From a virus, in IMG/VR virus record IMGVR_UViG_3300031227_004654, positions 1 to 24,081 of that record: a stretch of DNA of 24,081 nt. One strand, 5' to 3'. Under the pieces are notes generated by a model. The model saw only the letters and a list, made by a program, of their open reading frames with translations. It had not been told where the DNA came from and did no database searches. The translations under genes were made by a program, and so were the position numbers. The first letter of the stretch is position 1, and each line of letters opens with the position of its first letter. This document shows, piece by piece, positions 2,362 to 19,471 of the stretch.

Positions 2362-2916
2362 TTAATTAAAAAACCCACCAGCTCTAATACCATATTGTTT
2401 TAGGGTATCTTTTATAAATTGAGTAGTTATTGTGTTAGCTTTTCGTAATTCTGATTTTTGACTATGACCAGTTCTCCATCTAAAATATGGTCTTGATGGT
2501 ATCCTAGCACCATTATTAGCGATTACTATTGAGCCTCTAATGCCATCCTGATTGTGAGTATCATACATATCGCGAGAGTGTTCATTTAAACCTACTATCT
2601 CAAGAGTTGCTTTTCCCGCAAATACATTACTCACCATATAGTTATAATTTGACCGTATGTCACTAAGTGGCGTACCATCTTTGCTCTGATAGTTACCTTT
2701 TTCTGGTGTATGCAATAACTTATGTATACCCCATCTTTTAGTCGTCGTTGCTTTATGTTGAACCCACCCAGGACCGCTACTATCCATTGCTTCTTGAGCG
2801 GAATCTAATAACATCTCACCAATTTTACCTAATAATGTATCCATACTATTAGCAATAGAAGAATTTCCTCTCATCAATTTAGGTATGTCATTTCTGGTGA
2901 CTCTTACGCTAATCAT
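2362..2916 (-). CDS. Tail completion / virion morphogenesis protein (Mu gpG or HK97 gp10 type)
   Basis: A 184-aa protein with an N-terminal helical part, a central DSSGPGWVQHKATTTKRWG segment, and a C-terminal IPSRPYFRWRTG. An early W with basic residues, followed by a late 'IP-RP-F' motif, is characteristic of phage virion morphogenesis proteins (Mu gpG, HK97 gp10). These act at the head-tail neck. Its ATG overlaps the last bases of the upstream connector gene (4 nt, ATGA), indicating coupled translation. Neighbours on both sides are connector and tail terminator genes, which supports the neck role. Confidence 0.72.
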   Translation of the reverse strand: MISVRVTRNDIPKLMRGNSSIANSMDTLLGKIGEMLLDSAQEAMDSSGPGWVQHKATTTKRWGIHKLLHTPEKGNYQSKDGTPLSDIRSNYNYMVSNVFAGKATLEIVGLNEHSRDMYDTHNQDGIRGSIVIANNGARIPSRPYFRWRTGHSQKSELRKANTITTQFIKDTLKQYGIRAGGFFN

Positions 2917-3371
2917 TTCTTAGGATCCGTTTCCCATGTTGTTGGTTCTTGCTCATTAAATGTAGGCTCATAATCCTCTGTAGAGGATTTAATACCACGG
3001 CTAGTCTTCTTTCCTATCTTATTACCACTGTTATCAAGCAATAGAATACCACCCTTGGTTATATCGTTTAACAAATCATATGCGTACTCTTTAAATGAAT
3101 TCATCCAGGCGTCATTATCTGTGGTACGAGCTTGGACATACAACATCCTTAATATATAATACGCAGATAAGTGCATAGATATAGTACGAATCATAGGAGG
3201 TGTTGTAGTAAAAGGTACTGAATATAATTGATATAGTCTTGCGTCTATATAATCATCCGACCTATCTATAAAATATTGTACGTCTGTATCGCTAGTGATT
3301 GCATCAGTAACTTTCTTTAATAGTTTTCTGACATCATCATCTGGGTCACAGTATGAGTATGTTCTTGCCAT
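2913..3371 (-). CDS. Head-tail connector protein (DUF1320 / Mu gp36-like)
   Basis: A 152-aa, largely helical protein. The segment DRSDDYIDARLYQLYSVPFT followed by TPPMIRTISMHLSAYYIL matches the pattern of gp36/gp6-like connectors: an 'ID--L--rY-lPl----P--l' helix pair, then a long helix. The C-terminal 35 residues are polar and probably disordered. Connectors of this type form a dodecameric ring under the portal. This gene resumes the structural module after the sugar cassette. Its start follows AAGGT and is 2 nt from the stop of the previous small gene, so it appears to be co-transcribed with the cassette. Confidence 0.72.
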   Translation of the reverse strand: MARTYSYCDPDDDVRKLLKKVTDAITSDTDVQYFIDRSDDYIDARLYQLYSVPFTTTPPMIRTISMHLSAYYILRMLYVQARTTDNDAWMNSFKEYAYDLLNDITKGGILLLDNSGNKIGKKTSRGIKSSTEDYEPTFNEQEPTTWETDPKK

Positions 3372-3373
3372 TT

Positions 3374-3646
3374 TTATACCTTACGTTCTTCGCCTTTATG
3401 AAGACATGTGTTCCACACTGAGAAAGATGCATAACACCTATCGGTATGAGTCCAAACATTCTTAAATGGACACGCACCACTCAGCTCACATATTCTTATT
3501 TTCCTTTTTTTATCTTTATTTTTCCTACCATTGCTAGTATCTGTAATACCCTCTGTTTGCTCGTCATGTGTCCCTAAAATCTCTATCTTTCCAGTCTCTA
3601 TTACCATCTTATCTACTTTATCTCTAACTAATTCTGGTATCTTCAT
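3374..3646 (-). CDS. Small Cys-containing hypothetical protein
   Basis: This 90-aa protein is not recognised. The ATG at 3646 was chosen because it overlaps the hddA-like stop as ATGA and has GGAG 9 nt upstream; longer forms would overlap that gene by up to 64 nt. The N-terminus is acidic and helical (KIPELVRDKVDKMVIETGK). A lysine/arginine-rich patch (about 41-52) follows, and a C-terminal third with four Cys (C53, C59, C71, C81) and nearby His could bind a metal. It lies at the junction between the sugar cassette and the tail connector, and its function is unknown. Confidence 0.65.
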   Translation of the reverse strand: MKIPELVRDKVDKMVIETGKIEILGTHDEQTEGITDTSNGRKNKDKKRKIRICELSGACPFKNVWTHTDRCYASFSVWNTCLHKGEERKV

Positions 3647-4668
3647 GTTCGTATGCTCCATGTATATACCCCTCTGCGCCCCCATGCAAAATCCCAAGGT
3701 TGACATCCTAGTTTGCTAAGCGCGTTTGCTATATCATGTTTTTTCTTCCAGTCTGCATATACTATCATCATTCCACCCCCACCAGCACCAGTAACTTTCA
3801 AACCCTCTGCTCCATTATCAAGTGCTACTTTTTCCATGGCCTGTATAACCTCATTGGTTATCTTGCCAGATAATTTCTTTTTATAATGCCACTCTAACGA
3901 TAACAATTGACCAAAGTTGCTTAAATCTTCTGTTAATAGCGCCTCTTTAGCAGCCACTGCTATGTTTTTAATGTGTTTTATGTATTCTACGTTAGCATAT
4001 ATCTTTTTTTCCTGGTCTTTGATTAAATCTGATGATACGTGCGTCAAACCAGTATAAACCAATAACATGTTGTGCTGTAACTCTTTTGCTACCCAATCCC
4101 TTATTCTTAATGGATTTACTATTACAGAACCATCTTTATGAAACTCCATAAAGTTAAACCCACCGAATACTGCTGCGTACTGGTCTTGTGACCCACCAGA
4201 CATGGCAAGGTCATTACGTTCTATTTCCCAAGCTAGTTTTGCAAGTGAGTAATCATTAAGATGCAAGTCCAACCATTCGCGGAATAACCCCAATAGAGCC
4301 ACTACCACAGTAGATGACGTACCAAGTCCAGCTCCTGGTGGTGCATCAGATGCTACTATGATGTCAAATCCAGGTATTGCAGCTGGATGCATGACATGCA
4401 CTCTATTGATTACTGCTTTTACCAAATCAAGGTTGCCATCGTATGGCATGCTCTTGTTCGCTCTACCATTGACTACTATATTGTAATCATGCGATTTAAT
4501 GCTTATCCTACCATCTGTACGTGGCTCTAGAGAGGCATACACGTACTTATTGATAGTAGCATTTAAGACAAACCCACCGAACTCCCTTACAAACACGTTT
4601 AAATCGCTTGATCCACCAGCTATGCCTAATCTCAAGGGTGCTATTGAACGTACTATATGCTTTCCCAT
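3643..4668 (-). CDS. hddA: GHMP-family sugar kinase, probable D-glycero-alpha-D-manno-heptose-7-phosphate kinase
   Basis: A 341-aa, full-length GHMP kinase. The ATP-binding motif 2 is at 109-119 (PPGAGLGTSST), a GGSQDQYAAVFGG segment at 158-170, and the glycine-rich C-terminal motif 3 at about 292-301 (VTGAGGGGMM). The N-terminal RSIAPLRLGIAGGSSDLNVF is typical of HddA-type heptose kinases and related fucose kinases. HddA makes the 1,7-bisphosphate in the GDP-D-glycero-alpha-D-manno-heptose route used in S-layer and capsule glycans. It overlaps the end of the nucleotidyltransferase gene by 16 nt, and AAGGG precedes its ATG. The pairing supports heptose over other sugars, but exact substrate specificity cannot be read from sequence alone. 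Confidence 0.8.
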   Translation of the reverse strand: MGKHIVRSIAPLRLGIAGGSSDLNVFVREFGGFVLNATINKYVYASLEPRTDGRISIKSHDYNIVVNGRANKSMPYDGNLDLVKAVINRVHVMHPAAIPGFDIIVASDAPPGAGLGTSSTVVVALLGLFREWLDLHLNDYSLAKLAWEIERNDLAMSGGSQDQYAAVFGGFNFMEFHKDGSVIVNPLRIRDWVAKELQHNMLLVYTGLTHVSSDLIKDQEKKIYANVEYIKHIKNIAVAAKEALLTEDLSNFGQLLSLEWHYKKKLSGKITNEVIQAMEKVALDNGAEGLKVTGAGGGGMMIVYADWKKKHDIANALSKLGCQPWDFAWGRRGVYTWSIRT

Positions 4669-5258
4669 CGTTTACCCTTAAACACTTTCTGTTCTTTTGC
4701 GAACTTAAGACCCTGATGAGAACCCACGTCTAAAAACTCTCTATCTGATGTGTACTCATTACAATCTACACATTTAAGTCTTTCGTCCAGGTTAAACTCA
4801 TATGGTCGTTCCATATACTTGAATATCTTATTAGAGAAGATATACACCCCCGCTGGCTTCATCTTCTTATCAAGCATAGACCTCGCTTTAACAATTGTCG
4901 CGAGACCTTTGTGGTGCTTACCTATCTGTGTTATATCTTCATCAATATAGGTATCACCGTTGATTACAGCAAACTTTTTATTAGTCTTAAAGAATGGCTC
5001 TGCTATTCTTAGTGCTCCCCCTGTGCCTAATGGAGCCATCTCATCTATAAATTCTACAACTATCTTATTCTCTTTGCACCAGTTACGTATAGAGTTTCTT
5101 TGATACCCTATAGAGAGCACTACATCGTGCTTCTTTAACCACTTAAGTATATAATATATAAATGGCTTACCATGTACGGAGACCATTGGTTTTGGCATGT
5201 ACTTTGTCAGTGGTAATAATCTAGTTCCTTTTCCGCCCGCCAATATTAATACTCGCAT
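4653..5258 (-). CDS. hddC: Sugar-1-phosphate nucleotidyltransferase, probable heptose-1-phosphate guanylyltransferase
   Basis: A 201-aa protein with the complete nucleotidyltransferase signature: LAGGKGTRL at 6-14, PKPM at 22-25, PLGTGGAL at 76-83, and the metal/nucleotide loop INGDTYIDED at about 99-108. The C-terminus FLDVGSHQGLKFA matches the end of compact HddC-like enzymes, which lack the long C-terminal domain of RmlA. With the adjacent GHMP kinase it most likely activates D-glycero-alpha-D-manno-heptose 1-phosphate to the GDP sugar for the cassette's glycosyltransferases. Two extra Cys near 170 are unusual. Another hexose-1-phosphate nucleotidyltransferase activity is the main alternative. 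Confidence 0.78.
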   Translation of the reverse strand: MRVLILAGGKGTRLLPLTKYMPKPMVSVHGKPFIYYILKWLKKHDVVLSIGYQRNSIRNWCKENKIVVEFIDEMAPLGTGGALRIAEPFFKTNKKFAVINGDTYIDEDITQIGKHHKGLATIVKARSMLDKKMKPAGVYIFSNKIFKYMERPYEFNLDERLKCVDCNEYTSDREFLDVGSHQGLKFAKEQKVFKGKRWESI

Positions 5259-5261
5259 TGA

Positions 5262-5579
5262 TTACCCCGTGGTTGCGTATCGAACCCATACCCCTAATAC
5301 TATACCAAGTATTATAACTACTACTACAAGCTTTTCTAAGAAATTGACTTTACTCTCAGTAGCTTTTAAATCTCCAGTATGCCTGGCGCATGGAAGCTTA
5401 CCTATTTTCTTAGACATATCTGCAATAGCATCTTTTACTTCATCAAACTTGCTACAATAACTCTGAGCTCGTATCGCTGATGATTGATTATGTGCTTCCC
5501 AGCGTTCGTCAAACTGTGTCTTTAGTACTGAAAAGTTTTCTTTAAGCTTGTTATATAATTGTAATGAGTCGCCATTCAT
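5262..5579 (-). CDS. Coiled-coil protein with C-terminal membrane anchor
   Basis: A 105-aa protein. Residues 1-60 form a probable coiled coil (LYNKLKENFSVLKTQFDERW and onward), followed by a short Cys-containing PCARH segment and one strong transmembrane helix near 82-98 (KLVVVVIILGIVLGVWV). The layout resembles XhlA-type or holin-accessory proteins found in phage lysis regions, but the neighbours here are sugar genes. It would lie in the inner membrane with the coiled coil on one face. It starts 10 nt after a multi-span membrane protein, so the two may act together. Lysis, superinfection exclusion and glycan export are all possible, and sequence does not decide. Confidence 0.7.
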   Translation of the reverse strand: MNGDSLQLYNKLKENFSVLKTQFDERWEAHNQSSAIRAQSYCSKFDEVKDAIADMSKKIGKLPCARHTGDLKATESKVNFLEKLVVVVIILGIVLGVWVRYATTG

Positions 5580-5589
5580 AGGGACCTCT

Positions 5590-6060
5590 CTATATGAGCA
5601 TTATAGGTAATGTAGCAGATATGATACCACCTCGACCAAATTCTTCCGCTACATCGTTAATCCAAAACTTGCACCATAATCCCATAAAGATTGACATGAT
5701 GACTGCTCGGGTTAATATTGCATACCACGGAATAACCATGAAATACGGTAGATATGCTAGCCCTAAAACCAATCCATGCATATAAAAATTATCTTCCCCG
5801 AATACATCGTCCCAATAAGTGGTTATTGCTAACCACGCACATACAAATACAATTGCATGAACCCACCATGCACAACTCAATCCGAACAATATAAGGTACA
5901 ATATAGATAGTAATGGACAGCCCCAGCGTCTAACAAGACGCTCCCTTGCCCATACGGGTATCCATGTAGGCTTAGCTGTTGCATCTTTGCTCATACCACC
6001 ACATCTGTACAATACAGCAGATATAGCTAATGCGATTAATGTTGCAAATAATACTATCAT
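5590..6060 (-). CDS. Polytopic membrane protein
   Basis: A 156-aa hydrophobic protein with about four to five membrane segments. The first starts at the N-terminus (MIVLFATLIALAISAVLY); others include LLSILYLILFGLSCAWWVHA, a segment near GLVLGLAYLPYFMVIPWYAI, and the C-terminal ISATLPIMLI. Tryptophan-rich loops (WDDVFGEDNFYMHG) lie between them. The family is not recognised. The ATG overlaps the previous stop (ATGA) and has AGGAG 6 nt upstream, so it is clearly translated. Placed among glycan genes and next to an anchored coiled-coil protein, it could be a holin-like, exclusion or lipid-linked sugar-handling protein. No catalytic motif supports a specific activity. Confidence 0.72.
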   Translation of the reverse strand: MIVLFATLIALAISAVLYRCGGMSKDATAKPTWIPVWARERLVRRWGCPLLSILYLILFGLSCAWWVHAIVFVCAWLAITTYWDDVFGEDNFYMHGLVLGLAYLPYFMVIPWYAILTRAVIMSIFMGLWCKFWINDVAEEFGRGGIISATLPIMLI

Positions 6061-6344
6061 ATCTTTCTCCTATAGCAGTATACCTCATGAGTTTTGTTAA
6101 ACTTCTTATATAGATTATGAGATATTATTTTATTTGTTGTTTGTGCATCTAATTCAAACCCATTGTTTCTAAACTCTGCTCTCCATATCATGGGTGTGTG
6201 TAAATCTTTTTTAATATACATTATTACTAACGAACCGATCGGTACTGCCTTCTTTAACTCTACTGCTTGCTTTAAAAACAATCCTTCTAACATGAATGAT
6301 GTCAGTATACCACAATTAGAAATAATGGTTTTCAAATGGCTCAC
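6057..6344 (-). CDS. Hypothetical protein, GTG start
   Basis: A 95-aa protein that is not recognised. The start is a GTG at 6344 preceded by AAGGGGGG at 5-nt spacing, better than any downstream ATG. This start makes the gene overlap the end of the HIT-like gene by 29 nt. The sequence has a hydrophobic stretch (AVPIGSLVIMYI) followed by a basic C-terminus (NLYKKFNKTHEVYCYRRKI). No membrane helix is convincing. It is translationally coupled to the membrane protein that follows (ATGA). Confidence 0.6.
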   Translation of the reverse strand: MSHLKTIISNCGILTSFMLEGLFLKQAVELKKAVPIGSLVIMYIKKDLHTPMIWRAEFRNNGFELDAQTTNKIISHNLYKKFNKTHEVYCYRRKI

Positions 6345-6609
6345 TTGCGCCCCCCTTAAATTCTGTTAAATGAAAGTGAAAGTGTTCTGTGTTCTCTTTA
6401 ATGCTAAAATTAAATGCATTTAACTGCATGTTAAATATTTCCCTGGTCTTGTTAAGCATGTGCTCTAATTCGTTCTTAATAGGTTTTCTATGCGTTTTTA
6501 ATGCTACAACAGGATGTCCACATATCGAACAATCACATATGTAACAAATCTTATCTTCGTGTATTAAATGAGTTGTTTTAATGTGTTCGCATAGATGGCA
6601 TTTTTTCAT
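6316..6609 (-). CDS. HIT-like histidine-triad protein with N-terminal Cys motifs
   Basis: A 97-aa protein. The motif HFHFHL at 76-81 fits the histidine triad H-phi-H-phi-H-phi of the HIT superfamily, whose members hydrolyse or transfer nucleotides. The N-terminus has CHLC (4-7) and CYICDCSIC (22-30), likely metal-binding. The segment GHPVVALKTHRKPIKNELEH followed by a helix resembles short HIT-like proteins in which a 'C-iC--P-V-l--H' stretch precedes the triad. At 97 aa it is smaller than a usual HIT domain (about 110 or more), so activity is uncertain. The ATG overlaps the previous stop (ATGA). It may act on nucleotide-sugar or dinucleotide by-products, but that is inference from context. 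Confidence 0.6.
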   Translation of the reverse strand: MKKCHLCEHIKTTHLIHEDKICYICDCSICGHPVVALKTHRKPIKNELEHMLNKTREIFNMQLNAFNFSIKENTEHFHFHLTEFKGGASEPFENHYF

Positions 6610-6905
6610 ACCGAATATACCCCCTTTTGCCTATCTTTCAATTCTCCTAATTTAGATTTATTCCAATTTCCTATCCTTGCAAAATAACCTACTACCCGTG
6701 ACATGTGATATACATCATGTGAACGCAACTTTTCTAGCAACATATCTTTGTCGAGTTGCTTTATGCCTTCATTTGACAAGTGATACTTGACATATTCGCC
6801 GTTAAATTCTTTTTTAAATGCTACTCCGACTACTTTCTTCTCGGTATGATCCGCCCACATCCAATCTTCGTCCACAAGTAAACTTACAAAATCTTCTTTT
6901 GTCAT
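6606..6905 (-). CDS. Small protein with class III RNR (NrdD) glycyl-radical-like C-terminus
   Basis: A 99-aa protein whose last third, about 68-92, contains RVVGYF (70-75), NWNKSK (80-85) and ELKDRQ. Class III anaerobic ribonucleotide reductases end in the same order of motifs, where the Gly of the RVxGY segment carries the radical; here that is G73. The first 65 residues (DEDWMWADHTEKKVVGVAFK and onward) are not NrdD-like to my eye, and there is no catalytic barrel and no Cys. It is therefore either a stand-alone radical module, analogous in concept to GrcA/YfiD, or a domain reused for something else. It starts as an ATGA overlap with the methyltransferase. Function is not established. Confidence 0.6.
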   Translation of the reverse strand: MTKEDFVSLLVDEDWMWADHTEKKVVGVAFKKEFNGEYVKYHLSNEGIKQLDKDMLLEKLRSHDVYHMSRVVGYFARIGNWNKSKLGELKDRQKGVYSV

Positions 6906-7486
6906 TTTTTACATATTCCCATACTTTTATTATGGTCGAAGTAAATAACGTCTACCTCACTAAACACTCTCTTTAGTAGTATCTTATATTCTTTCATACT
7001 GTACTCGCGTATGTGCCACTTAGCAGGACTCTCGTGCTCTTTTTTAATAGGTGTCGTACCAATAAAGATACCATTATCTTCCATAACGCGCTTTATCTCT
7101 TTTAACAATCCCACATCATCATCTATGTGCTCTACAACCTCGTGACATACAACTACGCCGTACGTTTTTTCTTTTTTGAGAATAGGCGGAAAATCTTCAT
7201 TAAACCACTCCACGTTACCTTTACTGTAATGCCTTTTCGCAAAATCGATTGCATCTGCTGTTTTATCAATCCCATGGACACACCATGCTTTCTTTGATAG
7301 TATTGCTGAACCATAGCCGCTACCGCAACCCAGGTCTAGCACTAATTTGTTTTCAGTGAATAGATTTGCAAAATCATATCTTTTAACCTGCATGCTCTCG
7401 TGGTCTTCTGTGTTTATTACAGCTCCACGCTCACCACGCCACGCATCTTCTGCTTTTTTCCATTCTTCTTTTGTGATTCTACTCAT
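6902..7486 (-). CDS. Class I SAM-dependent methyltransferase (UbiG-like fold)
   Basis: A 194-aa protein with clear motifs: SAM-binding VLDLGCGSGYGS at 49-60, the acidic residue in HGIDKT, and post-motif CHEVVEHIDD. A C-terminal segment GTTPIKKEHESPAKWHIREY suggests substrate binding. It is the most canonical of the five methyltransferases in the cassette. In glycan clusters such enzymes usually O-methylate sugars at the non-reducing end. Its start overlaps the preceding glycosyltransferase-like gene by 8 nt, with GGGGA upstream, supporting a shared pathway. The acceptor cannot be read from sequence. Confidence 0.85.
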   Translation of the reverse strand: MSRITKEEWKKAEDAWRGERGAVINTEDHESMQVKRYDFANLFTENKLVLDLGCGSGYGSAILSKKAWCVHGIDKTADAIDFAKRHYSKGNVEWFNEDFPPILKKEKTYGVVVCHEVVEHIDDDVGLLKEIKRVMEDNGIFIGTTPIKKEHESPAKWHIREYSMKEYKILLKRVFSEVDVIYFDHNKSMGICKK

Positions 7487-8273
7487 CTTTTGTCCCCATT
7501 TCGTTAATAAGTTTAATTATATTATTCGCTGCCCCAAAACTGTCATATAAATAATTGTTTAGAAACTCGCTATGTTTGAGCTCGTCTATAATTTGAGCGT
7601 ATGTTCTGCATATCTTAACATGTCTTGCAAGTGGTATAAAATGAGTTTCACGAGCAAATAAATTCATATGTGTGTCAAAGCAAATCACATGTTTATCCAT
7701 TAACATTGCGTGTAATGCTATTGTCGACGGACCAGTAATTACAACCTCACACTCTCTTAAGCACTCAATAATATCCTGTTTTTCATTTGAAATTCCAGGA
7801 TGCCGTTTAACACTAATAGTAATATTGTGCCCCTTAGAATACTCTATCATATCGGCAATAAATTTCTCGCTATCTAATTCAACCCTTGAGTATGATGGTA
7901 ACGCTATTAACACTCTACGCTTATGCGTCTCAAATCTAGGACAACCAGTAATCACGAGCTTCTCTTCGGGCCAGCCGCCTCTGAGGAAATCTTGTTTCAT
8001 GTTTTCACCCCAAACAGCTACCTTGTCTACATAGTTACCCTGTATATATTTCCAGTTGTTTAATCCCTCTACCACAAACAGTGACTTACTACCAAAGTGG
8101 TTAATGATACTTTTATTCATATCTATATGAGAAGCACTAACAATCACATCTGGTTTATCAAACTTAGTTATATCATCAAACTTTGTAAAGAGTATTTTCT
8201 CTTCCATCTTTGGGTAGATGAATTTAAACAATCTCTCAGACAACTCAGTTGTGATTAGAAACATACATTTCAT
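7479..8273 (-). CDS. GT-B-like transferase related to CDP-glycerol glycerophosphotransferases
   Basis: A 264-aa protein. The middle VAVWGENMKQDFLRGGWPEE followed by KLVITGCPRFE is the pattern seen in CDP-glycerol glycerophosphotransferase and related surface-carbohydrate transferases. Later, SVKRHPG and VVITGPSTIALHAMLMDKHV match the C-terminal donor-binding half. It is shorter than full teichoic-acid polymerases, covering essentially the GT-B core. It probably transfers a sugar or polyol phosphate in the cassette's glycan pathway. It follows the truncated sugar-transferase fragment by 12 nt and overlaps the next methyltransferase. The donor is unknown. Confidence 0.7.
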   Translation of the reverse strand: MKCMFLITTELSERLFKFIYPKMEEKILFTKFDDITKFDKPDVIVSASHIDMNKSIINHFGSKSLFVVEGLNNWKYIQGNYVDKVAVWGENMKQDFLRGGWPEEKLVITGCPRFETHKRRVLIALPSYSRVELDSEKFIADMIEYSKGHNITISVKRHPGISNEKQDIIECLRECEVVITGPSTIALHAMLMDKHVICFDTHMNLFARETHFIPLARHVKICRTYAQIIDELKHSEFLNNYLYDSFGAANNIIKLINEMGTKDE

Positions 8274-8285
8274 TAAACTGTATTC

Positions 8286-8432
8286 CTACTCTTCTACGTA
8301 ATATGGTAAGTCATATTTCTTTAAACTGGGGAATAGCTTGTCCAAGAAGACGCTCTCGTAGTATTCACCACTAGTATAAAACGAACAAACAACAAAGTTT
8401 TTATCTTGTCTTATATTCTCGTATATTTTCAT
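8286..8432 (-). pseudogene. Truncated sugar-transferase remnant, 48 aa
   Basis: A 48-codon reading frame fills the space between two genes. It starts with an ATGA overlap on the preceding methyltransferase and stops at 8286. Its sequence, including FVVCSFYTSGEYYESVFLDK and LPYYVEE, looks like the first strand-helix-strand of nucleotide-diphospho-sugar (GT-A) transferases. The rest of the enzyme (acceptor and DxD region) is absent, and the next gene begins 13 nt later. There is no clear Shine-Dalgarno. It is probably a deletion remnant, although a translated small peptide cannot be excluded. Confidence 0.55.
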
Positions 8433-9016
8433 TTTCTGAATGCCATTACGCAAACTTCTGCTCTCATTTTGTCTCTTTGACGCTGAATAAAATAATTCCC
8501 AACATTAATCCCAAACTCTTTGCCTATCCTAACCAATTCACTTTCTGTCCAAATAGCAAGATGATGCTCATGTGTGTTACCATCACGAATGCTTTTTTTG
8601 TTAGTCCAATCACCTATTGGTATGCTTAATAAACAACACTTATCTGCCTTCTCTATGCCCTGGCGTAATAATTCTTCGCCTCTCTCTTTTTCTAAATGTT
8701 CTACAACATCTCCCAAGATTATTAAATCATAATGCCCTAGCGTTTTTATAACATCAAGTGCATCACCATTATACATGTTATCATAGAAATGTGGAACCCA
8801 TGGAAGCTTTTCAACATAGCGTTTCCATATCTCTATACCATCTATTTTTAATTCCCAATCTTCTGGATATATTCTATCACCCTGGGTTTCAAATATCTCT
8901 CTACACATAAAACCCCACTTGCCATAACCAAAACCAACATCAAGTATTGTATTTGGCTTCGTTTCTCTTATCTCTTTTATCATTGGTGTTATACTAAAGT
9001 GTGATGAAGTTGGCAT
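8429..9016 (-). CDS. Class I SAM-dependent methyltransferase
   Basis: A 195-aa protein. The ATG at 9016 was chosen because it overlaps the preceding TAA as TAATG. The SAM-binding loop is at 25-35 (LDVGFGYGKWG), the acidic ribose-binding region at 58-62 (IDGIE), and a DVVEHLEK motif at 103-110. SIPIGDWTNKKSIRDGNTHE-type sequence follows near the predicted acceptor pocket. It is not obviously a paralogue of the two methyltransferases upstream. A role in glycan methylation is inferred from the surrounding glycosyltransferases. Confidence 0.8.
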   Translation of the reverse strand: MPTSSHFSITPMIKEIRETKPNTILDVGFGYGKWGFMCREIFETQGDRIYPEDWELKIDGIEIWKRYVEKLPWVPHFYDNMYNGDALDVIKTLGHYDLIILGDVVEHLEKERGEELLRQGIEKADKCCLLSIPIGDWTNKKSIRDGNTHEHHLAIWTESELVRIGKEFGINVGNYFIQRQRDKMRAEVCVMAFRK

Positions 9017-9537
9017 TATTTTTTTCTCCCTATTATTTCTATCTCCCAAGGCATATAATCTGGTTTATTAGTTTTTATAAATTCATAGTTAGTTTCAGCA
9101 AATATCTCTTGTAAACTATTTATACTAAATCCAGCTACATGTGTATTTTCAGGATAATTTTGCCCACCATATAGATAATTTATTACAGTTCCACTATGAG
9201 TTAAATATGAACTACAAAGAGCTTTCATGTCTGGTATCTTTAATGTCAATATGCAACCAGTCTTTAAAACTCTGTTCCATTCTTTTAGCACTCTAATGGT
9301 ATTTACGTAATTTGCTCCCATTGGTATATGCTCTAATACTGACTCCGCCCATATCTCATCAACTTCGTTATCTTTCCAGGGTAAACGACAAGATAAATCG
9401 CACACAGTGTTGACAGTTCCTGTTTGTCTAATATCTACGTTTACATACCCTTTGCTATTCCAGTTTGATGTGCCAGCCCCAAATAATAATTTTAATCTTC
9501 CAGAATCGAAGTTTCTAATTTTATCTATTAGAGTCAT
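9016..9537 (-). CDS. SAM methyltransferase-like protein, paralogue of the gene at 10097-10711
   Basis: A 173-aa protein. The start at 9537 overlaps the upstream stop as ATGA. It shares a run of features with the gene two positions upstream: GRLKLLFGAGTSNWNSKGYVNVDIRQ near the N-terminus, AESVLEHI at 64-71, RVLKEWNRVLKTG, and YGGQNYPENTHVAGF. The GxGxG loop is partly degraded (FGAGTSNW), as in a subset of sugar-cluster methyltransferases. The pair probably arose by duplication and may methylate different positions or residues. Catalysis by this copy is plausible but not certain. Confidence 0.72.
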   Translation of the reverse strand: MTLIDKIRNFDSGRLKLLFGAGTSNWNSKGYVNVDIRQTGTVNTVCDLSCRLPWKDNEVDEIWAESVLEHIPMGANYVNTIRVLKEWNRVLKTGCILTLKIPDMKALCSSYLTHSGTVINYLYGGQNYPENTHVAGFSINSLQEIFAETNYEFIKTNKPDYMPWEIEIIGRKK

Positions 9538-10100
9538 TTTATTAACCACCAATCACTGGAACTACCATCTGTTTTTGTTTCAAGTACTATTTTTTTGTCC
9601 TCTTTGTTAATTTCAAATTCTTGATTTTTCATATTCACAAATTCATCTATTGCTTTTACAACACCATGTGCATTCATCCAAGTTGGTGACTTTTCCTTCA
9701 TATTATGCCAATCTAATCTATAATCGTGTCCACATAGCACGCCACCAGGTTTTACTTTTTTGTACCACACTATACAATCTCTCAATACATCAAAATACGC
9801 ATGGCTAGCATCTATGTATACAAAATCCAACGAATTATCATCAAACAATAATACCGCTTCTAACGATGCCTGCAAATACCACTTTACCTTATCTTTAAAC
9901 TCTTCAAGCGTTACCCTGGCATCACCATGGCTAGATAATGGTCTCTCGCTGTAATTGTCTACCAAATGTAATGTCTTAATCTCTTTCCAATCATAAAGCA
10001 TGCCCCACGCGTGAACACCCCTATCTACGCCAACCTCTACTCCAACAATATCCTTCTTACCATTACTTGCTATTTTAGCTTTCCACATTGCAGCTCTCAT
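9534..10100 (-). CDS. SAM-dependent methyltransferase, Methyltransf_24 type
   Basis: A 188-aa protein from the ATG at 10100, which overlaps the upstream TGA (ATGA) and has GAGG 9 nt upstream. It has VGVEVGVDRG at 19-28 as the SAM loop and FVYIDASHAY at 93-102, the signature of the Methyltransf_24 family. KPGGVLCGHDYRLDWHNM follows, with the metal/acid residues expected for O-methyltransferases of this type, many of which act on sugars such as rhamnose or macrocin. It lies between two paralogous methyltransferases. Confidence 0.85.
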   Translation of the reverse strand: MRAAMWKAKIASNGKKDIVGVEVGVDRGVHAWGMLYDWKEIKTLHLVDNYSERPLSSHGDARVTLEEFKDKVKWYLQASLEAVLLFDDNSLDFVYIDASHAYFDVLRDCIVWYKKVKPGGVLCGHDYRLDWHNMKEKSPTWMNAHGVVKAIDEFVNMKNQEFEINKEDKKIVLETKTDGSSSDWWLIK

Positions 10101-10711
10101 CTTATAGCCCTCACACCCATTTCCCACGACACGTCTTCTTTAAGTTCGTTAGCTGGATTATGAGCGTCAGTTATCTTCCACTCTTTAAATCCAGCCGCCC
10201 TTAAACATGCTGATATTATCTTACTATCAAATCCAGCTTTATGATAATTTTCTGCATATTCCCCACCACCATATACATAACCAATGAAATCAATAACAGT
10301 CATATTCCCAGCAAGATATTGCTTAAAAACTCCTCTAAGATTGGGTAATCTAAGTACCAATAGTCCTCCAGGCTTAAGAACTCTACGCCATTCACGTAAG
10401 ACTTTGATAGAATTAGTCATTCTAAAAAGTGGATCCACTCCAATAACATTATGATTAATATGCTCTAAAACGCTCTCAGCTAGTATCTCATTAAGAGATT
10501 CATCTTCAAATGGGAGTGTTTGACTCGCATCAAACAGTAAGTCCATATAAGGTGCTTCTCTAATGTCTGCATTGATATAGCCTTCAGCATGTAAGTCTTT
10601 AGGACCTACACCTATTGCTAGCTTACCGTTGTATCGTTTTATCAAAGAACTGTATGATTCGCTCTGCGTCTTTTTGCCAACTCCAATATTCTCTTGCCCA
10701 TTGCGCTCCAT
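10097..10711 (-). CDS. SAM methyltransferase-like protein, paralogue of the gene at 9016-9537
   Basis: A 204-aa protein. The ATG at 10711 has GAGAGGGG 5 nt upstream, so it is the likely start even though it overlaps the preceding glycosyltransferase by 89 nt. Features are LAIGVGPKDLHAEGYINADI at 31-50, AESVLEHI at 78-85, a RVLKPGGLLVLRLP segment, and YGGGEYAENYHKAGF near the C-terminus. These align by eye with the paralogue. As there, the canonical glycine loop is modified. The first 25 residues overlap the glycosyltransferase frame and are probably the least constrained. Confidence 0.75.
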   Translation of the reverse strand: MERNGQENIGVGKKTQSESYSSLIKRYNGKLAIGVGPKDLHAEGYINADIREAPYMDLLFDASQTLPFEDESLNEILAESVLEHINHNVIGVDPLFRMTNSIKVLREWRRVLKPGGLLVLRLPNLRGVFKQYLAGNMTVIDFIGYVYGGGEYAENYHKAGFDSKIISACLRAAGFKEWKITDAHNPANELKEDVSWEMGVRAIR

Positions 10712-11648
10712 ATTTTCCCCTCTCTTTTGCTTCGTCTTGATGTTCTAATATGTATTTTAATAAATATGCTAAGTGCGTTTTATCGGGTTCAGCTTGTTTT
10801 CCTGGTAAGTACCCACAGTCCACTTCTTTATACTTGAGCGGATAGCCTGTTTGCTCTGAGATGTATTCTGTTGGCCCTCCGAAACCTGTGATAAGAAGCG
10901 GCATACCTGTAGCCATAGCTTCCAATCCTGGCAACATGAAGCTATCACCATGAGTAGGGCAAACAAAACAATCGCAACTGTGGTATAAATCAGCGAGCTC
11001 AAGACGACTGAGCTCATTATGTACCAATCTAACATTTTTACACCTTGACTTTTCTGGTAATTTACCCCAACCAGTAGACTTCACTACCAATTCACAATCG
11101 TCTCTATCACCTAATGCGTCTTCAAAGACATATCGCAGTTCATCTGTTCCCTTGCGTCCTTGAGCCACACCCACAAATAAGAATCTAAATTTATCACGCT
11201 TTGCTCTCTCCTTGTATGTGAATAGATTGGTATCTACTCCTTGCCCGCCAACATGGATAGGTATGGTTACACCAGCATCTCTAAATGCTTTCTCTGTAAA
11301 CTTTGATAAGCATATACTAGCATTTGCTATGCTGTTTAAGTTATCTGCTGCTTCTTTTGATATAAGACTTGAATCCCAGCAGTTTAGTGTAACCTTAAAT
11401 ATGTCTCCATGCACTTTATTCAGAAAGAACATCTGCGTTGGAAGACCCTGATTAATAATAACATCAAACTTATATATTCTATTGATATGGTCAACAAGAA
11501 ACTTAGGGCATGAACCATAGTGGTCTTTTACCCATATAGATAGGTTCTGTCGATTCTGTAAAAACCCAGTAGCATTACCAATAGCTGATATGCCCCAGCT
11601 TTGTGTATCTCCTACATCACTACATAGTAGTATGTTGTATTTGCCCAT
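10623..11648 (-). CDS. GT-B glycosyltransferase (GT4-like)
   Basis: A 341-aa protein. Its N-terminus MGKYNILLCSDVGDTQSWGI matches the first Rossmann strand and acceptor loop of GT-B enzymes. The donor half contains FLFVGVAQGRKGTDELRYVF, CDCFVCPTHGDSFMLPGLEA and MATGMPLLITGFGGPTEYI. This is the GT4 pattern, with D in place of the first Glu of EX7E (DSFMLPGLE). It starts inside the end of the previous glycosyltransferase gene (29 nt overlap), with GGGG 8 nt upstream. It probably transfers a nucleotide sugar to the growing glycan. Donor and linkage are unknown. Confidence 0.83.
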   Translation of the reverse strand: MGKYNILLCSDVGDTQSWGISAIGNATGFLQNRQNLSIWVKDHYGSCPKFLVDHINRIYKFDVIINQGLPTQMFFLNKVHGDIFKVTLNCWDSSLISKEAADNLNSIANASICLSKFTEKAFRDAGVTIPIHVGGQGVDTNLFTYKERAKRDKFRFLFVGVAQGRKGTDELRYVFEDALGDRDDCELVVKSTGWGKLPEKSRCKNVRLVHNELSRLELADLYHSCDCFVCPTHGDSFMLPGLEAMATGMPLLITGFGGPTEYISEQTGYPLKYKEVDCGYLPGKQAEPDKTHLAYLLKYILEHQDEAKERGKYGAQWAREYWSWQKDAERIIQFFDKTIQR

Positions 11649-12696
11649 TAAGAAATCCCCATATCCTTTTCTGCGTATTTTCTAAGTTATAGAAATGTGA
11701 CGCATTAATAGCTTTATTAACAACTTTATTATAAAACAATTTATCTGTCATCAGTCGTGCCGCTATTTCTACAGCATGAACTATATCATAATCTGCAACT
11801 GATGTTTCAGGGAAGCACATTCTATTGGGGAAGTTAGCAACTGTACCCACCATAGGAATACCTAAAGCTGCACAATCTTGTGCTAATCTTCCAACTACTT
11901 TAAATGTATATAGATGTATTGCCATATATGCGTTAGATAGATACTCTACCGCTTCTTTATATGGTAACTCATCCACTAGCTCAAAATCTTCTGCACCAAC
12001 ATCATCTATGAGCTTTCTTAAATCATCTTTCTTATTAGGTGTTATGTAATACATCCACCCTTTAGTTGCAGGAAAAAGTTTCTTGATTCTCTTGTAAGCT
12101 TCTAGATTAGTGAGTAAGTCTCTATTAAAATCACCAGGATTATTAATGCTTACGCATATACCATTAGTTTCTTTACGATTCTCTTTTATGTAAGGATAGT
12201 GCAACTGTTCAGGATACATCGCCCAGCCAGTGTATAAGCATTTAGTATGGTCATTTAAAGCAACTCTGAACGTATCAACTTCGTCGATGTTAGTACACAT
12301 TATGTAGTCATATAGGCGTAGCGACTCCACAAAATGTTGTAGTATAGGTATGGGCCAGTATGATAGCTGATGAGTTTGTATATCAGTCACACCAATTATC
12401 GTACCTTTAAATAGTGGTCGTATGCGTTTTAATAAGTCAAAGAACTCTGCGTATACTGGATAAATAAAGTAATCATACTGCTTTACTATCTGTCCAAGCT
12501 GTGCATCAGATATATTATTCAAATCATGAAAATAATAACAATCAGCACCATCTTTTTTAAATGTCAATGGGACACCAGTAATGCCATTGACTAGCTCTGC
12601 TTGTCTTTCTCCAAACTCGCACTTGTATGGAGATAAAAATGCTATGTTCTTATCCTCAAACTGTTTGTAAAAGAAATCTGTAAAGTTTTTTTCCAT
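11620..12696 (-). CDS. GT-B-like glycosyltransferase
   Basis: A 358-aa protein. The start at 12696 shares one base with the upstream TAA (TAATG) and has GGGGAG 5 nt upstream, so the longer form is unlikely. The N-terminal half (IAFLSPYKCEFGERQAELVN) and the C-terminal half, with MYYITPNKKDDLRKLIDDVG and VVGRLAQDCAALGIPMVGTV, follow a GT-B layout. A classic EX7E motif is not present. It therefore resembles the diverged third unit of its large neighbour more than canonical GT4 enzymes. It probably acts in the same glycan pathway. Confidence 0.7.
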   Translation of the reverse strand: MEKNFTDFFYKQFEDKNIAFLSPYKCEFGERQAELVNGITGVPLTFKKDGADCYYFHDLNNISDAQLGQIVKQYDYFIYPVYAEFFDLLKRIRPLFKGTIIGVTDIQTHQLSYWPIPILQHFVESLRLYDYIMCTNIDEVDTFRVALNDHTKCLYTGWAMYPEQLHYPYIKENRKETNGICVSINNPGDFNRDLLTNLEAYKRIKKLFPATKGWMYYITPNKKDDLRKLIDDVGAEDFELVDELPYKEAVEYLSNAYMAIHLYTFKVVGRLAQDCAALGIPMVGTVANFPNRMCFPETSVADYDIVHAVEIAARLMTDKLFYNKVVNKAINASHFYNLENTQKRIWGFLNGQIQHTTM

Positions 12697-15600
12697 TACT
12701 TCTCCCCATTGATTAAAGTGTTTAATGATTTCCAATAAATTTTTGCTACGTTTACCCAAGAGAACATCTTAGCTGTTATCTCTCGTTCTTTTTTCGTAAC
12801 CTTTCTTGGTTCTTTTTTAAATATATCAATTAGACCAGATGTAGTCTCTTCTTTAGTTCCCTCTTTAACATACTCTACTAAGTCTCCATACCAATGTCTA
12901 TATAGTGGTGTATCAAAACATATTGGTCTAGAGCCACACATCAATCCTTCTGCAACGGTTTTTTCGAATCCCTCTATTCGTCGCATTCCAGATGTGTATG
13001 AGCACGTATGATACATATAACACAAATTAGATATCGTTAAGAATTCTCTACATACATGGTATGATTTGTTCTTAAGCTGTAAATTTGGACCAGTGTGTAT
13101 AATATTTTTATCTACAGCATCGGCTGCTATGATAGACTCGTATATGCCCTCTGTCTCTGCAACGCTACCAGTATTTAATATTATATACTTGTGCGTGTTG
13201 TCAACCATATGGTAGAAGTTGCGATGATTTGTACCCCACGGCCCCCTAATAAAGTTGGTAAGCTCTGGTAACTCGCTCTGTAAATCTAAGTGTGAATATA
13301 CCATAAGAGCATTTTTAAAATATGGTAAGTAATCTTCTATCTTTTCTTCTGACCACACACCTCTACAATGAAAGTTTATTATATAATTCTTGCAACACAA
13401 ATTTGTGAAGTCTGCTAGTTTAGCTATATCAATAATCTGTATATCAGCGTCACCACAATTGTCAGTAAACTCTACCAAACTTGGCGCGTAACGCATGATA
13501 TTGGTACGATTGTCATCGTTCCACATATTTTTACAAAAGTTTTTATAATATATTCTAGTCTTTCTCGGAATCTTCTCTAGTGTTTTAAGTGCTTCATCAA
13601 TTTTTTTAGCTGTATTTTCCCATGTATAGTCTGGTACTCTATTTTCGCCATCATTAACTATCCCTGCGCCATACATCTTGCGCATAGCATGCATTAATGG
13701 TTTAAAGTCTATGTCGCACCACTTAGCACCTTGTAGATAAACTGGTGATTTAATAGCGGCTGATAACCGATGTGTAATACCCATAAACCTAGTTATGTTT
13801 GATGCAAAATCAAGATACCCACCATAGTTAGGGGCTATGACTGCCATTCCAGATGCTAATGAATCCAATACTGGCTGACAGAACCCTTCAGCATGAGATA
13901 CCGTAACAAGGCAGTCACAAGCTTTATACAGCGGTGATAAGTCGTCCATATCTTCATGTATAATCTTTACTTCTGCGGGATTATCTATACCACGTATCAT
14001 AGTCTCATACAATTCAGTTGGATCCGAATTAACATGCCCTGGCTGTGATTTAGCCACCAAGCACACATCGTCATCTCCACTGAACTCAGCAAGATACGCT
14101 TGTAATAAAGTAGCTGTATTTTTTCTGACATCACCAAGATTACCTAATGCGAGAAATCTATATTTTTTATCTGTATCCAATACTGCCGCACTAGAATTTG
14201 TATTAACAGTGATACCATTAGGTATGACAGTTATCTTATCTGCGGATGCGCCATTTCTTACAAATATATCTTTTACGAATGTAGAGTTGCACCAGAAAGC
14301 ATCTGCTTTCCTATTAATCATATCTATCCATTCATCCTTGACCTCAGTCATTTCCCATGGGGAGTATATAATTTTAACACGTGCTACTGATTCATCTATG
14401 CGTCTAACGCATTCGTCAGGCATGTGGTTGATTATCTCAACATCGTTATACTTGTCTTTGTCAATGAGCTGTTGTAAATCACCTACATCATAATTTGCTG
14501 GCTTATCAATCCTAGGTGTTATGGATATTTTGTGCCCTAAATCTCTTAAGCCTTTAGCAAAACCAGCTGTTACAATGCTAAAACCTGTATTTTCGTATAT
14601 TGCACCCTGTATATTGATTTCTTGTTTGTCTCTAGCTATACGTATTGACTCTGGTCTAGATGAAACAGTATATGTTCTTTTATGCAATAATGTGTCAATG
14701 ATGTTTTCCCATCGACCATATACAGATGACCAGTCTAATGATAATGCATATTGTCTTGATTTGAGCGATATTTGGCTTCTAAGCTCTTTAGAGCGATAAA
14801 GTACCTCTATGCATCGAGCAAGGTCATTTGTATCTACTAAAGCTCTGTCCACGTTGTATTGACCTACTATAAACGTAGCCACCTTAGCTAAAAGTCCTCT
14901 ATCTCCTTCAAAGTGCTCTGGAAACGTAGTATAATCAGGTCCTATGCATGGAATACCACACGACATCGCCTCGGTCGTGGTAAGTCCCCAACCTTCGCCC
15001 TGTGCTGCTGATATCTTAACATCACAGCAATTATAGAGGCCTACAAGCTCTTGAAGCTCTACACCTTTTTCTACTGTAACCCTATTGTTAACCAATACAC
15101 TTTGAGTGATATTGTATCTACCAATGATACCATTCTCTCCCAAAAGAAACTTTTTTTGTTTTGCTGAATGCCCATCATTCTGGTCTAAATGCAAATATAG
15201 AGAACATTTATCGTTTGTATGTAGCTGTTTAAACTTAGCAAATGCTTCTATTGCCCGTGGTATCTGCTTCCTATCTTGATATCTATCAAATACACCTACT
15301 ACGAACTCGCCCTCTGTAGATGGTAGATATTTCTTACGTAGTTCACTCTTATTGGGATATGGTCTAAATGTAGACGTATTAACGCCACGTGGTATTTGCT
15401 CTATATGAACAAATGGGTCTACATCATGACACACTCTCAATGCGTACTTACTCATTACCACTGGTAAGTCAGCGTTCTTAATTAACTTTACCCAACTGGG
15501 TGGTACTGGCCCACCATCTATTGGAAACTCATGTATGAACTTAAATTCATTTCTGCGTGGTGAGAAATAAATGTGGTCAGCCATCCATAGGTCAGCTATT

Positions 15601-15920
15601 GCTATTATAACATCTGGTTTAAAAGTATCTAATGTTTGTGTGAAAGGAGAGCTCTCAAAGTTTCCTTTTGGGTCGTCATAGTTATGATTCCAACCAACTG
15701 GATGTCCATATGGATTTCTTGTGTCAGATGTTGTATATTGTTTCCAAGGAAAGTTCCATTTAAGCCCCCGCTCTTTAGCTGAGTGCCAGAACCAACCAAA
15801 CTGTGCTACTTCATACTTTCCACTATTGTGTAGTCTAATTCCCAGCTCTTTACATGCTACACCCATTCCAGTATCTATCGCTGCTGAATCACCTACTAAT
15901 AATATGCGTGGTTTATCCAT
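12696..15920 (-). CDS. Giant protein with three tandem GT-B glycosyltransferase units
   Basis: A 1074-aa protein. The start at 15920 (MDKPRILLVG) is preceded by GGAAGGGG. An upstream in-frame ATG would run into the structured RNA and is rejected. Unit 1 (about 1-415) is a full GT4-like enzyme with E309/E317 as an EX7E motif (EGWGLTTTEAMSCG). Unit 2 (about 435-785) has WCNSTFVKDIFVRNG, VIPNG and EGFCQPVLDSLASG, with D686 replacing the second Glu. Unit 3 (about 790-1074) is shorter and diverged, yet keeps E983/E991 in EGFEKTVAEGLMCG. A single polypeptide could therefore add two or three sugars in sequence, probably in the cytoplasm. There are no membrane segments. Fused double GT4 proteins are known, but three units in a phage protein is notable. 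Confidence 0.88.
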   Translation of the reverse strand: MDKPRILLVGDSAAIDTGMGVACKELGIRLHNSGKYEVAQFGWFWHSAKERGLKWNFPWKQYTTSDTRNPYGHPVGWNHNYDDPKGNFESSPFTQTLDTFKPDVIIAIADLWMADHIYFSPRRNEFKFIHEFPIDGGPVPPSWVKLIKNADLPVVMSKYALRVCHDVDPFVHIEQIPRGVNTSTFRPYPNKSELRKKYLPSTEGEFVVGVFDRYQDRKQIPRAIEAFAKFKQLHTNDKCSLYLHLDQNDGHSAKQKKFLLGENGIIGRYNITQSVLVNNRVTVEKGVELQELVGLYNCCDVKISAAQGEGWGLTTTEAMSCGIPCIGPDYTTFPEHFEGDRGLLAKVATFIVGQYNVDRALVDTNDLARCIEVLYRSKELRSQISLKSRQYALSLDWSSVYGRWENIIDTLLHKRTYTVSSRPESIRIARDKQEINIQGAIYENTGFSIVTAGFAKGLRDLGHKISITPRIDKPANYDVGDLQQLIDKDKYNDVEIINHMPDECVRRIDESVARVKIIYSPWEMTEVKDEWIDMINRKADAFWCNSTFVKDIFVRNGASADKITVIPNGITVNTNSSAAVLDTDKKYRFLALGNLGDVRKNTATLLQAYLAEFSGDDDVCLVAKSQPGHVNSDPTELYETMIRGIDNPAEVKIIHEDMDDLSPLYKACDCLVTVSHAEGFCQPVLDSLASGMAVIAPNYGGYLDFASNITRFMGITHRLSAAIKSPVYLQGAKWCDIDFKPLMHAMRKMYGAGIVNDGENRVPDYTWENTAKKIDEALKTLEKIPRKTRIYYKNFCKNMWNDDNRTNIMRYAPSLVEFTDNCGDADIQIIDIAKLADFTNLCCKNYIINFHCRGVWSEEKIEDYLPYFKNALMVYSHLDLQSELPELTNFIRGPWGTNHRNFYHMVDNTHKYIILNTGSVAETEGIYESIIAADAVDKNIIHTGPNLQLKNKSYHVCREFLTISNLCYMYHTCSYTSGMRRIEGFEKTVAEGLMCGSRPICFDTPLYRHWYGDLVEYVKEGTKEETTSGLIDIFKKEPRKVTKKEREITAKMFSWVNVAKIYWKSLNTLINGEK

Positions 15921-16004: not shown

Positions 16005-17042
16005 TTATTCTTCGCACCAGTCCGATCTAAGCGACATATTTGTGTCGCTAGTGTGAGTAGTTACCTTTATAAGATAATCTTCGTTTTGTTTGAGTATCAT
16101 CTTGCCATCTGAATTTTCGCTACCACCTATCTTGGAACTTTCTCCAACAAACGCAACCTCTAGTACAGTACCATCTGCACCAACGGTCGGATCGCTGTAA
16201 TAGCTAAGAGATGTATTATTAACAGAATTCCTATCCATATTATATGCAGAAATAGGCGTTCCAGAACTAGATACCGTAGGGTTCTCTAGTAAAGTTGCGG
16301 TTACCTGTTTATCTACATACAGCGTAGATGTTAAATGAACTCTAGTAGCTGTATTTGGAGCGTGTATTAACCAATATTTGCTATTACCCGATGAAGCAAC
16401 TATACCACTAGCAGTTGCTGCGTAGCAAGTACCTTCGTGTACGTTGTGGTGTTCTACACTCATAGTTACTAGGTACCCATCATCAGCTACAGTCGCATCA
16501 TATGTACCATCTGTAATTTTTACTTTACCTATGGTGGTTCCTTCTCCAGGATTTAATCCCACTAAACCACTTACAGCTACTGTATCTTGTATTCCAGACA
16601 CCACAATTGGTGTAGTAGAATATACACCGCCGTCTACCGTTATTGAATTGCCACCATCCTGAATATTAACAGCGGCTGCTCCAGCTGCATTATCTACTGT
16701 TACATCTGAACCATTAGCATCTACATCTACTATACCAGATACAATTACTGGGGGCTGATACGATATACCTATACCATCTGGGGCTGAGACGCTTACATCA
16801 AGCGCACCGCCTGTAGATGTGAGAGCATTACCAGTGCTATCATATATGTCATCTTTCTGATGAAATGAAGAAGAACTTACCAATGCTTGTGATAAATTAC
16901 CAAGTTCATCTCTGAAAACAGTTACGTTTTCTATATTAATACCACTAACGGAAAGTTCCGTATCTACCATTAGTTTACCTGATGAATTTACTAATGCTGG
17001 ATACCTATTACCGTCTCCACCACGTATAACAACACTACTCAT
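16005..17042 (-). CDS. Beta-rich virion surface / fibre-like protein
   Basis: A 345-aa protein beginning MSSVVIRGGDGNRYPALVNS. The first 190 residues are low in charge and rich in Val/Asp/Gly/Ser/Thr, with repeated short strands (VDVDANGSDVTVDNAAGAAA, VNIQDGGNSITVDGG), typical of beta-prism or fibre-like phage proteins. The C-terminal half has a more compact domain (SKYWLIHAPNTATRVHLTST, then a SDTNMSLRSDWCEE end), often seen on phage surface proteins. Its Ser/Thr-rich surface makes it a candidate target for the neighbouring glycosyltransferases. It is preceded by AAGGAG. A structured RNA and a strong hairpin follow its stop. Confidence 0.7.
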   Translation of the reverse strand: MSSVVIRGGDGNRYPALVNSSGKLMVDTELSVSGINIENVTVFRDELGNLSQALVSSSSFHQKDDIYDSTGNALTSTGGALDVSVSAPDGIGISYQPPVIVSGIVDVDANGSDVTVDNAAGAAAVNIQDGGNSITVDGGVYSTTPIVVSGIQDTVAVSGLVGLNPGEGTTIGKVKITDGTYDATVADDGYLVTMSVEHHNVHEGTCYAATASGIVASSGNSKYWLIHAPNTATRVHLTSTLYVDKQVTATLLENPTVSSSGTPISAYNMDRNSVNNTSLSYYSDPTVGADGTVLEVAFVGESSKIGGSENSDGKMILKQNEDYLIKVTTHTSDTNMSLRSDWCEE

Positions 17043-18520: not shown

Positions 18521-19471
18521 TTATACGTTAGTTACCATGCATATTTGTTTGCCTCTGAACACAACTGGTACAAATGTCTTAAAGAGCTGTACTCTTATAG
18601 ACCTAATACCTTCTTCGGCCCACCTACGTACTGTAAGTGGTTCTGCTACATAAGTAAGACCCAATGAAGGACCTCTCTTGCAGACTACAGCATTAGTATC
18701 TGGCTGCATAGCGATTTCAGTAGCGCCATCAAGAATCGAAGCACTAGACTGACTAACGCTAGTATAAACACAGTCTGAAACAAATACGTCAAGACCTACA
18801 ATGTTCGGGATAGAACGACTTCTACCAGAAACTACTGGAGCTTCGATATTAGTTGTTATACCTGAATACTTATAGATGTCCTTAATATCAGCATGATTCA
18901 TCAAGTCTAATTCAACCTGTGGGCTAATTATAAGGGTATCTGGCTGTACATGTTGCTGTGTAAGAATGTTCTTTGCAGCATTACGTAAGTCAGCTACTGG
19001 GGTAGAGCTCGCGCTTACCCAGTTTGCAGACGCTGCAACAGCAGTTGCCGAAGCACCAGCTACTATAGCATCTATGATTACCTTCTCTTCACGAAGTGCG
19101 AGAGTATCAGCTAGGAACTCAACTTCATCAGTAATAAGAGAACGACCCGCAGATACTGCTATCTTTGAGTTCTTATTCATCAGAAACTTGACTGCTCTTT
19201 CGCTAATCTTTCCACCAATCCGATATTCCTTCATGGTGAAAGTTTCCTCGTCATAACTTGTGTTAAGAAGTGTATCTTCTCCACCTTCACCTACTTCTGG
19301 AGCCATTTGCCCGTAAGCAACGCCTCCATAACTCTTGTAATAACCACTAAATTCAGGGAACGATCTTTCAGGCAAAATAGCTGTCATGAAAAGAACGCCT
19401 TGAGTTTTCTTAATGGCTATACCAGTGAGTTTTTTAGGATGTAAGTCAGCCTGTATCTCATAACCTATCAT
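18521..19471 (-). CDS. Major capsid protein (HK97 fold)
   Basis: A 316-aa protein. The N-terminal part (AILPERSFPEFSGYYKSYGG, then YDEETFTMKEYRIGGKISER) and the body (VEFLADTLALREEKVIIDAI, TLIISPQVELDLMNHADIKD) match HK97-fold major capsid proteins without a long N-terminal delta domain, in line with the separate or fused scaffold upstream. The C-terminus (VRRWAEEGIRSIRVQLFKTF) ends in P-domain-like strands. It is preceded by a perfect AAGGAG, follows the decoration gene by 15 nt, and is followed by a strong hairpin. It would build the icosahedral shell. Confidence 0.85.
   Translation of the reverse strand: MIGYEIQADLHPKKLTGIAIKKTQGVLFMTAILPERSFPEFSGYYKSYGGVAYGQMAPEVGEGGEDTLLNTSYDEETFTMKEYRIGGKISERAVKFLMNKNSKIAVSAGRSLITDEVEFLADTLALREEKVIIDAIVAGASATAVAASANWVSASSTPVADLRNAAKNILTQQHVQPDTLIISPQVELDLMNHADIKDIYKYSGITTNIEAPVVSGRSRSIPNIVGLDVFVSDCVYTSVSQSSASILDGATEIAMQPDTNAVVCKRGPSLGLTYVAEPLTVRRWAEEGIRSIRVQLFKTFVPVVFRGKQICMVTNV

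Follow-up and report, generated by a model that had tools for sequence, protein, structure and literature searches.

To our knowledge, glycosylation of the phage particle has so far been demonstrated in few phages. The mycobacteriophages Che8, Corndog, and Myrna decorate capsid and tail tube with glycosyltransferases (GTs) of their own, according to the accounts of Freeman et al. (2023) given in PMC12363180 and PMC12619734, and the pairing of a single GT with a single methyltransferase (MT) in Rhodococcus phages has been interpreted likewise (PMC13313380). In chlorovirus PBCV-1, which carries a methylated capsid glycan, protein A064R combines two GT units with an MT (GT-GT-MT) and A111/114R comprises three putative GTs (PMC9614988, PMC7826918). 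Text searches of open papers, with most subscription papers outside their scope, returned no description of a cassette such as the one analyzed here, which is best explained as a glycan module that a lineage of tailed phages has inherited among its late genes.

Locus organization

The window, that is, the whole stretch of DNA that was analyzed, is an IMG/VR virus record of 24,081 bases, with all virion genes on the minus strand; every feature of the window located below lies on that strand. The genes run from the terminase large subunit, portal, protease with scaffold, and major capsid protein (MCP; 18521-19471, phrog_1650) through small proteins and the protein g16005 to a glycan block extending from 15920 down to 3643. 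Beyond it come the head-tail adaptor (2913-3371, phrog_195), the tail tube and tail chaperone genes, and the first part of a gene whose product matches a relative's tape measure. The block comprises GT, MT, and sugar-activation genes on a single strand, mostly overlapping (13 of the 18 junctions counted from the adaptor to g16005), and its 5' boundary is an ATG at 15920, the conserved start of a 1096-codon ORF. These observations agree with an earlier note, made from the sequence alone, which had placed a translationally coupled cassette between head genes and connector and set its limit at 15920; the note's central claim, that enzymes of glycan synthesis and methylation reside in the late structural operon, is well supported. 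Promoter-like sites showed no excess over shuffles in a promoter scan, and the operon claim is not based on that scan. A 6-kb contig of another dataset (L008) encodes terminase-to-capsid proteins identical to those of the window, one difference in the MCP excepted.

Four further IMG/VR contigs were compared with the window: G001 (36.6 kb), G002 (17 kb), G003 (40 kb), and G011 (55 kb). The block also holds three small proteins without an assigned role, at 6606-6905 (40% identical to its G001 orthologue), 6316-6609 (Cys/His-rich, with orthologues in G001 and G011), and 6057-6344 (65% to G001), as well as two proteins with membrane segments, and is therefore not purely a set of glycan genes. The latter two, together spanning 5262-6060 and kept in G001, possibly have a role in lysis: the first (5590-6060) has several transmembrane (TM) segments by Kyte-Doolittle analysis and may serve lysis or another function, and the second (5262-5579), with a C-terminal TM segment at residues 76-105, is possibly holin- or spanin-like. 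Matches of the 6606 gene to NRDD and of the 5262 gene to DUF2884 fell below cut-off and were taken as spurious.

Conservation and inheritance

All four contigs carry the cassette at the same site and with the same core order: a triple-GT protein, GT_11620, GT_10623, MTs, and the heptose-activation genes HddC and HddA. Identity ranges from 43% to 84%, HddA adjoins the adaptor or stands one gene away, and the MCP lies upstream in all three contigs that extend that far. In G011, an ORF resembling an HNH-type homing endonuclease was noted by eye between HddA and the adaptor (L082:15975-16649). In pairwise comparisons, identity falls in step for cassette genes and structural genes, which indicates that the two have been inherited together. 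Between the window and G001, dN/dS is 0.05-0.19 for GT, MT, and HddA genes and 0.07-0.22 for head and tail genes, and synonymous sites are close to saturation; purifying selection constrains the cassette genes as strongly as the structural genes.

These results bear on the possibility that the block is a bacterial polysaccharide island carried as passive cargo, or that the contig was misjoined, the latter being one of the grounds that the earlier note had named for abandoning its reading. The gene content does resemble bacterial surface-polysaccharide loci. Further, a cultured relative, Rossellomorea phage phiT1 (MCP 31% identical), has no such insert: 1.2 kb of small genes separates its capsid gene from the tail terminator, compared with an MCP-adaptor distance of 15 kb in the window and 19-27 kb in its relatives. 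The cassette was therefore either gained in the window's lineage or lost in that of phiT1. Against cargo or misassembly, five contigs, the window included, share core order and site, and the genes show strong purifying selection, co-divergence with the structural genes, and similar GC3. An identical core order in four independent contigs excludes an assembly artefact, and this explanation, which we regard as very improbable, is largely refuted by synteny.

The window returned no megablast matches to phages, and a host search with a portal profile against genome contigs gave one match only, at 33%, from goat rumen.

Glycosyltransferases and methyltransferases

The first gene of the block, GT_12696 (12696-15920), encodes a three-unit protein of 1074 aa from the conserved ATG, with two family-4 (GT4) domains and a GT-like C-terminal third. 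PF00534 matches it in two stretches (86.6 bits, over cut-off), and its orthologues in the four contigs are 45-71% identical. It contains E-x7-E motifs, of which one, in the C-terminal third, is invariant. This third unit has no Pfam match and shows weak profile similarity (hhalign) to GT_10623 (10623-11648), a family-4-type GT (PF00534, 50.8 bits against a cut-off of 26.4) with orthologues at 47-82%. An AlphaFold model of GT_12696 was discarded as unusable (pLDDT 40). GT_11620 (11620-12759), which probably starts at the ATG at codon 22, has orthologues at 49-78%, no family match, and no matches among 50,697 phage records; its best Foldseek matches are GT-B enzymes (TM about 0.2-0.3), and its low-confidence model (pLDDT 56) offers a hint, and a hint only, of a GT-B fold. 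GT_7479 (7479-8273), 72% identical to its G001 counterpart, is weakly similar to GTs of surface carbohydrate biosynthesis (TIGR04396, E=4.8e-9; NF046086, E=8.3e-9), both NCBIfam matches spanning some 40 aa and staying under cut-off.

Phage-encoded GTs are thus recognized by PF00534 over cut-off in two proteins. The earlier note's count of at least six GT units divides accordingly: three domains are firm (two in GT_12696 and that of GT_10623), and the remainder may be GTs by inference from a weak third unit in GT_12696, the weak GT_7479, and GT_11620 without a family match. Its five SAM-dependent MTs come closer, with four over Pfam cut-off: MT5 (10097-10711; PF08241, 30.8 bits, cut-off 21.2), MT4 (9534-10127; PF13578, 54.2 bits, cut-off 26.3), MT3 (9016-9552; PF08241, 26.6 bits, cut-off 21.2), a paralogue of MT5 at about 40%, and MT1 (6902-7486; PF08241, 57.4 bits). 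The fifth, MT2 (8429-9049), is MT-like but falls under the cut-off (PF13489, 18.3 bits against 27); its G001 orthologue is 66% identical.

Phage GTs can also act on DNA, and the enzymes of this block might glycosylate modified bases of the phage genome, as GTs of T-even and other phages do in the literature cited by PMC12619734. We give this explanation little credence. A PF00303 thymidylate synthase-type gene is absent from the seven records of the lineage, all of them possibly fragments, including those of 40 and 55 kb; the genes occupy a late structural position; and heptose activation with several MTs is ill-suited to simple base glucosylation.

Heptose activation

The GHMP kinase and sugar nucleotidyltransferase proposed in the earlier note are both recovered by family matches. 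The kinase (3643-4668) resembles HddA, the D-glycero-D-manno-heptose 7-phosphate kinase, over its full length (NF049969, E=2.3e-98, 330 bits against a cut-off of 600), and its best PDB matches are 4n3o and 3k85 (HddA). The sugar-1-phosphate nucleotidyltransferase (4653-5258) has HddC as its best NCBIfam match (NF049965, E=2.1e-24, low bits, below cut-off); its best PDB match is a heptose-pathway protein (6jq8/5xhw), a match that does not settle the nucleotide. Because both fall under the curated NCBIfam equivalog cut-offs, HddA and HddC are best-match assignments. GmhA was found in neither the window nor G001, G002, or G003, and is present in the G011 cassette (TIGR00441, 215 bits against a curated cut-off of 209); GmhB (TIGR00213) was found in none of the seven records of the lineage, all fragmentary, and this step could be supplied by a host enzyme or by a gene outside the fragments. 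Together, HddA, HddC, and the GmhA of G011 indicate activated D-glycero-D-manno-heptose. The sugar route of the cassette would then lead to activated heptose, with steps missing from the window, and the earlier description of a complete-looking route was too strong.

Variation among relatives and candidate acceptors

The cassette gene set varies between close relatives. At 8286-8432, the window retains a 48-codon stub whose homologue in G001 is the 5' end of a gene for a nucleotide-sugar transferase (23965-24642; PF03407, 25.5 bits), after which the alignment jumps by about 1.8 kb in G001; the stub indicates a deletion, with its junction here, in the window's lineage. The earlier note had recognized neither this scar nor the heptose assignment nor the inheritance of the cassette across contigs. 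Between MT2 and GT_7479, G001 has three more genes, namely the PF03407-type sugar transferase and two MTs, in place of which G002 and G003 carry additional GT2 enzymes. A common core with changing decoration genes suggests a constant core sugar chain with variable additions.

Several proteins could receive such a glycan. The candidate surface protein g16005 (16005-17042), with a C-terminus matching phrog_5335, shares its N-terminus with G001 and its C-terminus with G003. The earlier note called it Ser/Thr-rich, a description that hardly applies: its S+T content of 22% is barely above the 21% of the tail tube protein. The MCP C-terminus has no Ser/Thr tail, and the tail tube protein ends in NASSSV. 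At the matching site, relatives encode fibre-like proteins of 1114 aa (G001) and 1418 aa (G011). The G003 cassette (L022:4071-9020) includes a 1649-aa protein with a long mucin-like Ser-Pro-Ala (SASPS) repeat, in which S, P, and A account for 77% of 540 residues; this protein is a possible O-glycan acceptor.

Capsid-side glycosylation genes in other phages

Comparable positions are occupied elsewhere. In two distantly related phage contigs, with portals only about 35% identical, the MCP is followed at a distance of 0.8-1.6 kb by a 970-aa GT4-MT-GT2 fusion (L085:257-3178 and L086:16353-19271). Microcystis phage Mae-JY09 has a single GT between MCP and adaptor, and MW202718 (Caudoviricetes, Manatee Spring; L093:9046-17877), a complete circular podovirus, has several GT and MT genes, known by annotation names only, in the interval that opens directly behind the MCP and ends at a head-stabilisation gene. 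Unrelated phages thus repeatedly carry GT and MT genes next to the MCP. The earlier note had considered the arrangement unusual; the public recurrence of a GT, or of GT and MT, beside the capsid gene and the published virion glycosylation of mycobacteriophages weaken that view. MT836453 (L080), a phage-labelled human faecal record with an HddA at 44%, was rejected as phage evidence; it encodes a MatE-family protein, a pyruvyl transferase, a SIS protein, and HddA, and looks like a bacterial polysaccharide locus.

Proposed function

We consider it probable that the cassette serves virion glycosylation. HddA would phosphorylate heptose 7-phosphate; a phosphatase, the host GmhB, would then take off the 7-phosphate; and HddC would yield nucleotide-activated D-glycero-D-manno-heptose, GDP being the nucleotide expected from the family. 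Soluble GTs, the three-unit protein first, may add this heptose and host nucleotide sugars stepwise to a cytoplasmic acceptor, and the MTs would cap the sugars by methylating their hydroxyls. A surface protein of the virion, made from the same operon, is the likeliest acceptor, with g16005, the large fibre-like proteins of relatives, the tail tube, and the capsid as candidates; no dedicated protein-attaching enzyme was recognized.

The same enzymes, expressed late, might instead modify or compete for a heptose polysaccharide of the host surface and so mask receptors, block superinfection, or aid release. The heptose of HddA and HddC is otherwise a sugar of bacterial surface polysaccharides, GT_7479 weakly matches surface carbohydrate families, and a flippase and a pyruvyl transferase accompany a related HddA in a cluster of bacterial appearance. 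Remodelling of the host surface nonetheless appears unlikely to us. No GT or MT of the cassette has a TM segment by Kyte-Doolittle analysis; in the lineage's records, which are fragments, neither an initiating sugar-phosphate transferase (PF02397) nor a membrane-bound GT nor an integrase (PF00589) was recognized; and the late structural site has been held across deep divergence. The virion is favoured over the host as the target, on sequence grounds, because the capsid-side position is conserved, no lipid-carrier initiator was detected, the GTs have no TM segments, and GT-MT fusions lie next to the capsid gene in distant phages; the mycobacteriophages provide a precedent for such a target.

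More tentatively, this lineage may make its own activated heptose and build from it a variable, methyl-capped virion oligosaccharide, a bacterial-virus counterpart of chlorovirus capsid glycans, such that gene loss changes the coat; capsid-adjacent GT-MT modules might then be widespread and convergent in environmental phages. If so, phage coats would be a selectable, variable trait with a bearing on adsorption, predation, and immune recognition, and the cassette a source of unusual glycan enzymes.

Comparison with known systems

The cassette shares its HddA and HddC best matches, and GmhA in G011, with the bacterial GDP-D-glycero-D-manno-heptose pathway (GmhA-HddA-GmhB-HddC), and differs from it in that no GmhB was found in the seven fragmentary records, in having GmhA in one relative only, and in its position within a phage structural operon. 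It also differs from gtr-type serotype conversion by temperate phages, since no PF00589 integrase was recognized in the lineage's records and its GTs have no TM segments. Chlorovirus PBCV-1, whose A061L is an MT, has a methyl-capped glycan made by virus-encoded enzymes, as is proposed here (PMC7826918, PMC9614988), and three transferase units per protein occur in both systems, a likeness of design only: PBCV-1 is a virus of eukaryotic algae, with N-glycans and an unrelated capsid protein, whereas the window's MCP is not of the chlorovirus type but a tailed-phage major head protein (phrog_1650). A weak profile match to the solved "glycosyltransferase B736L" was also recorded.

MW202718 and Mae-JY09 resemble the cassette in placing GTs (and, in MW202718, MTs) between the MCP and head-closure or adaptor genes; unlike the window, they have no annotated HddA or HddC, and they represent other phage types with other GT fusions. 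With the mycobacteriophages, the cassette has phage-encoded GTs in common. In contrast to those phages, the window unites a pair of heptose-activation genes with some five MTs and between three and six GT units, all in a single block between MCP and adaptor. Phage-encoded virion glycosylation is already known; what sets this cassette apart is how large the set is, that it includes genes for heptose activation and a three-unit GT, and that its site in the structural operon is fixed.
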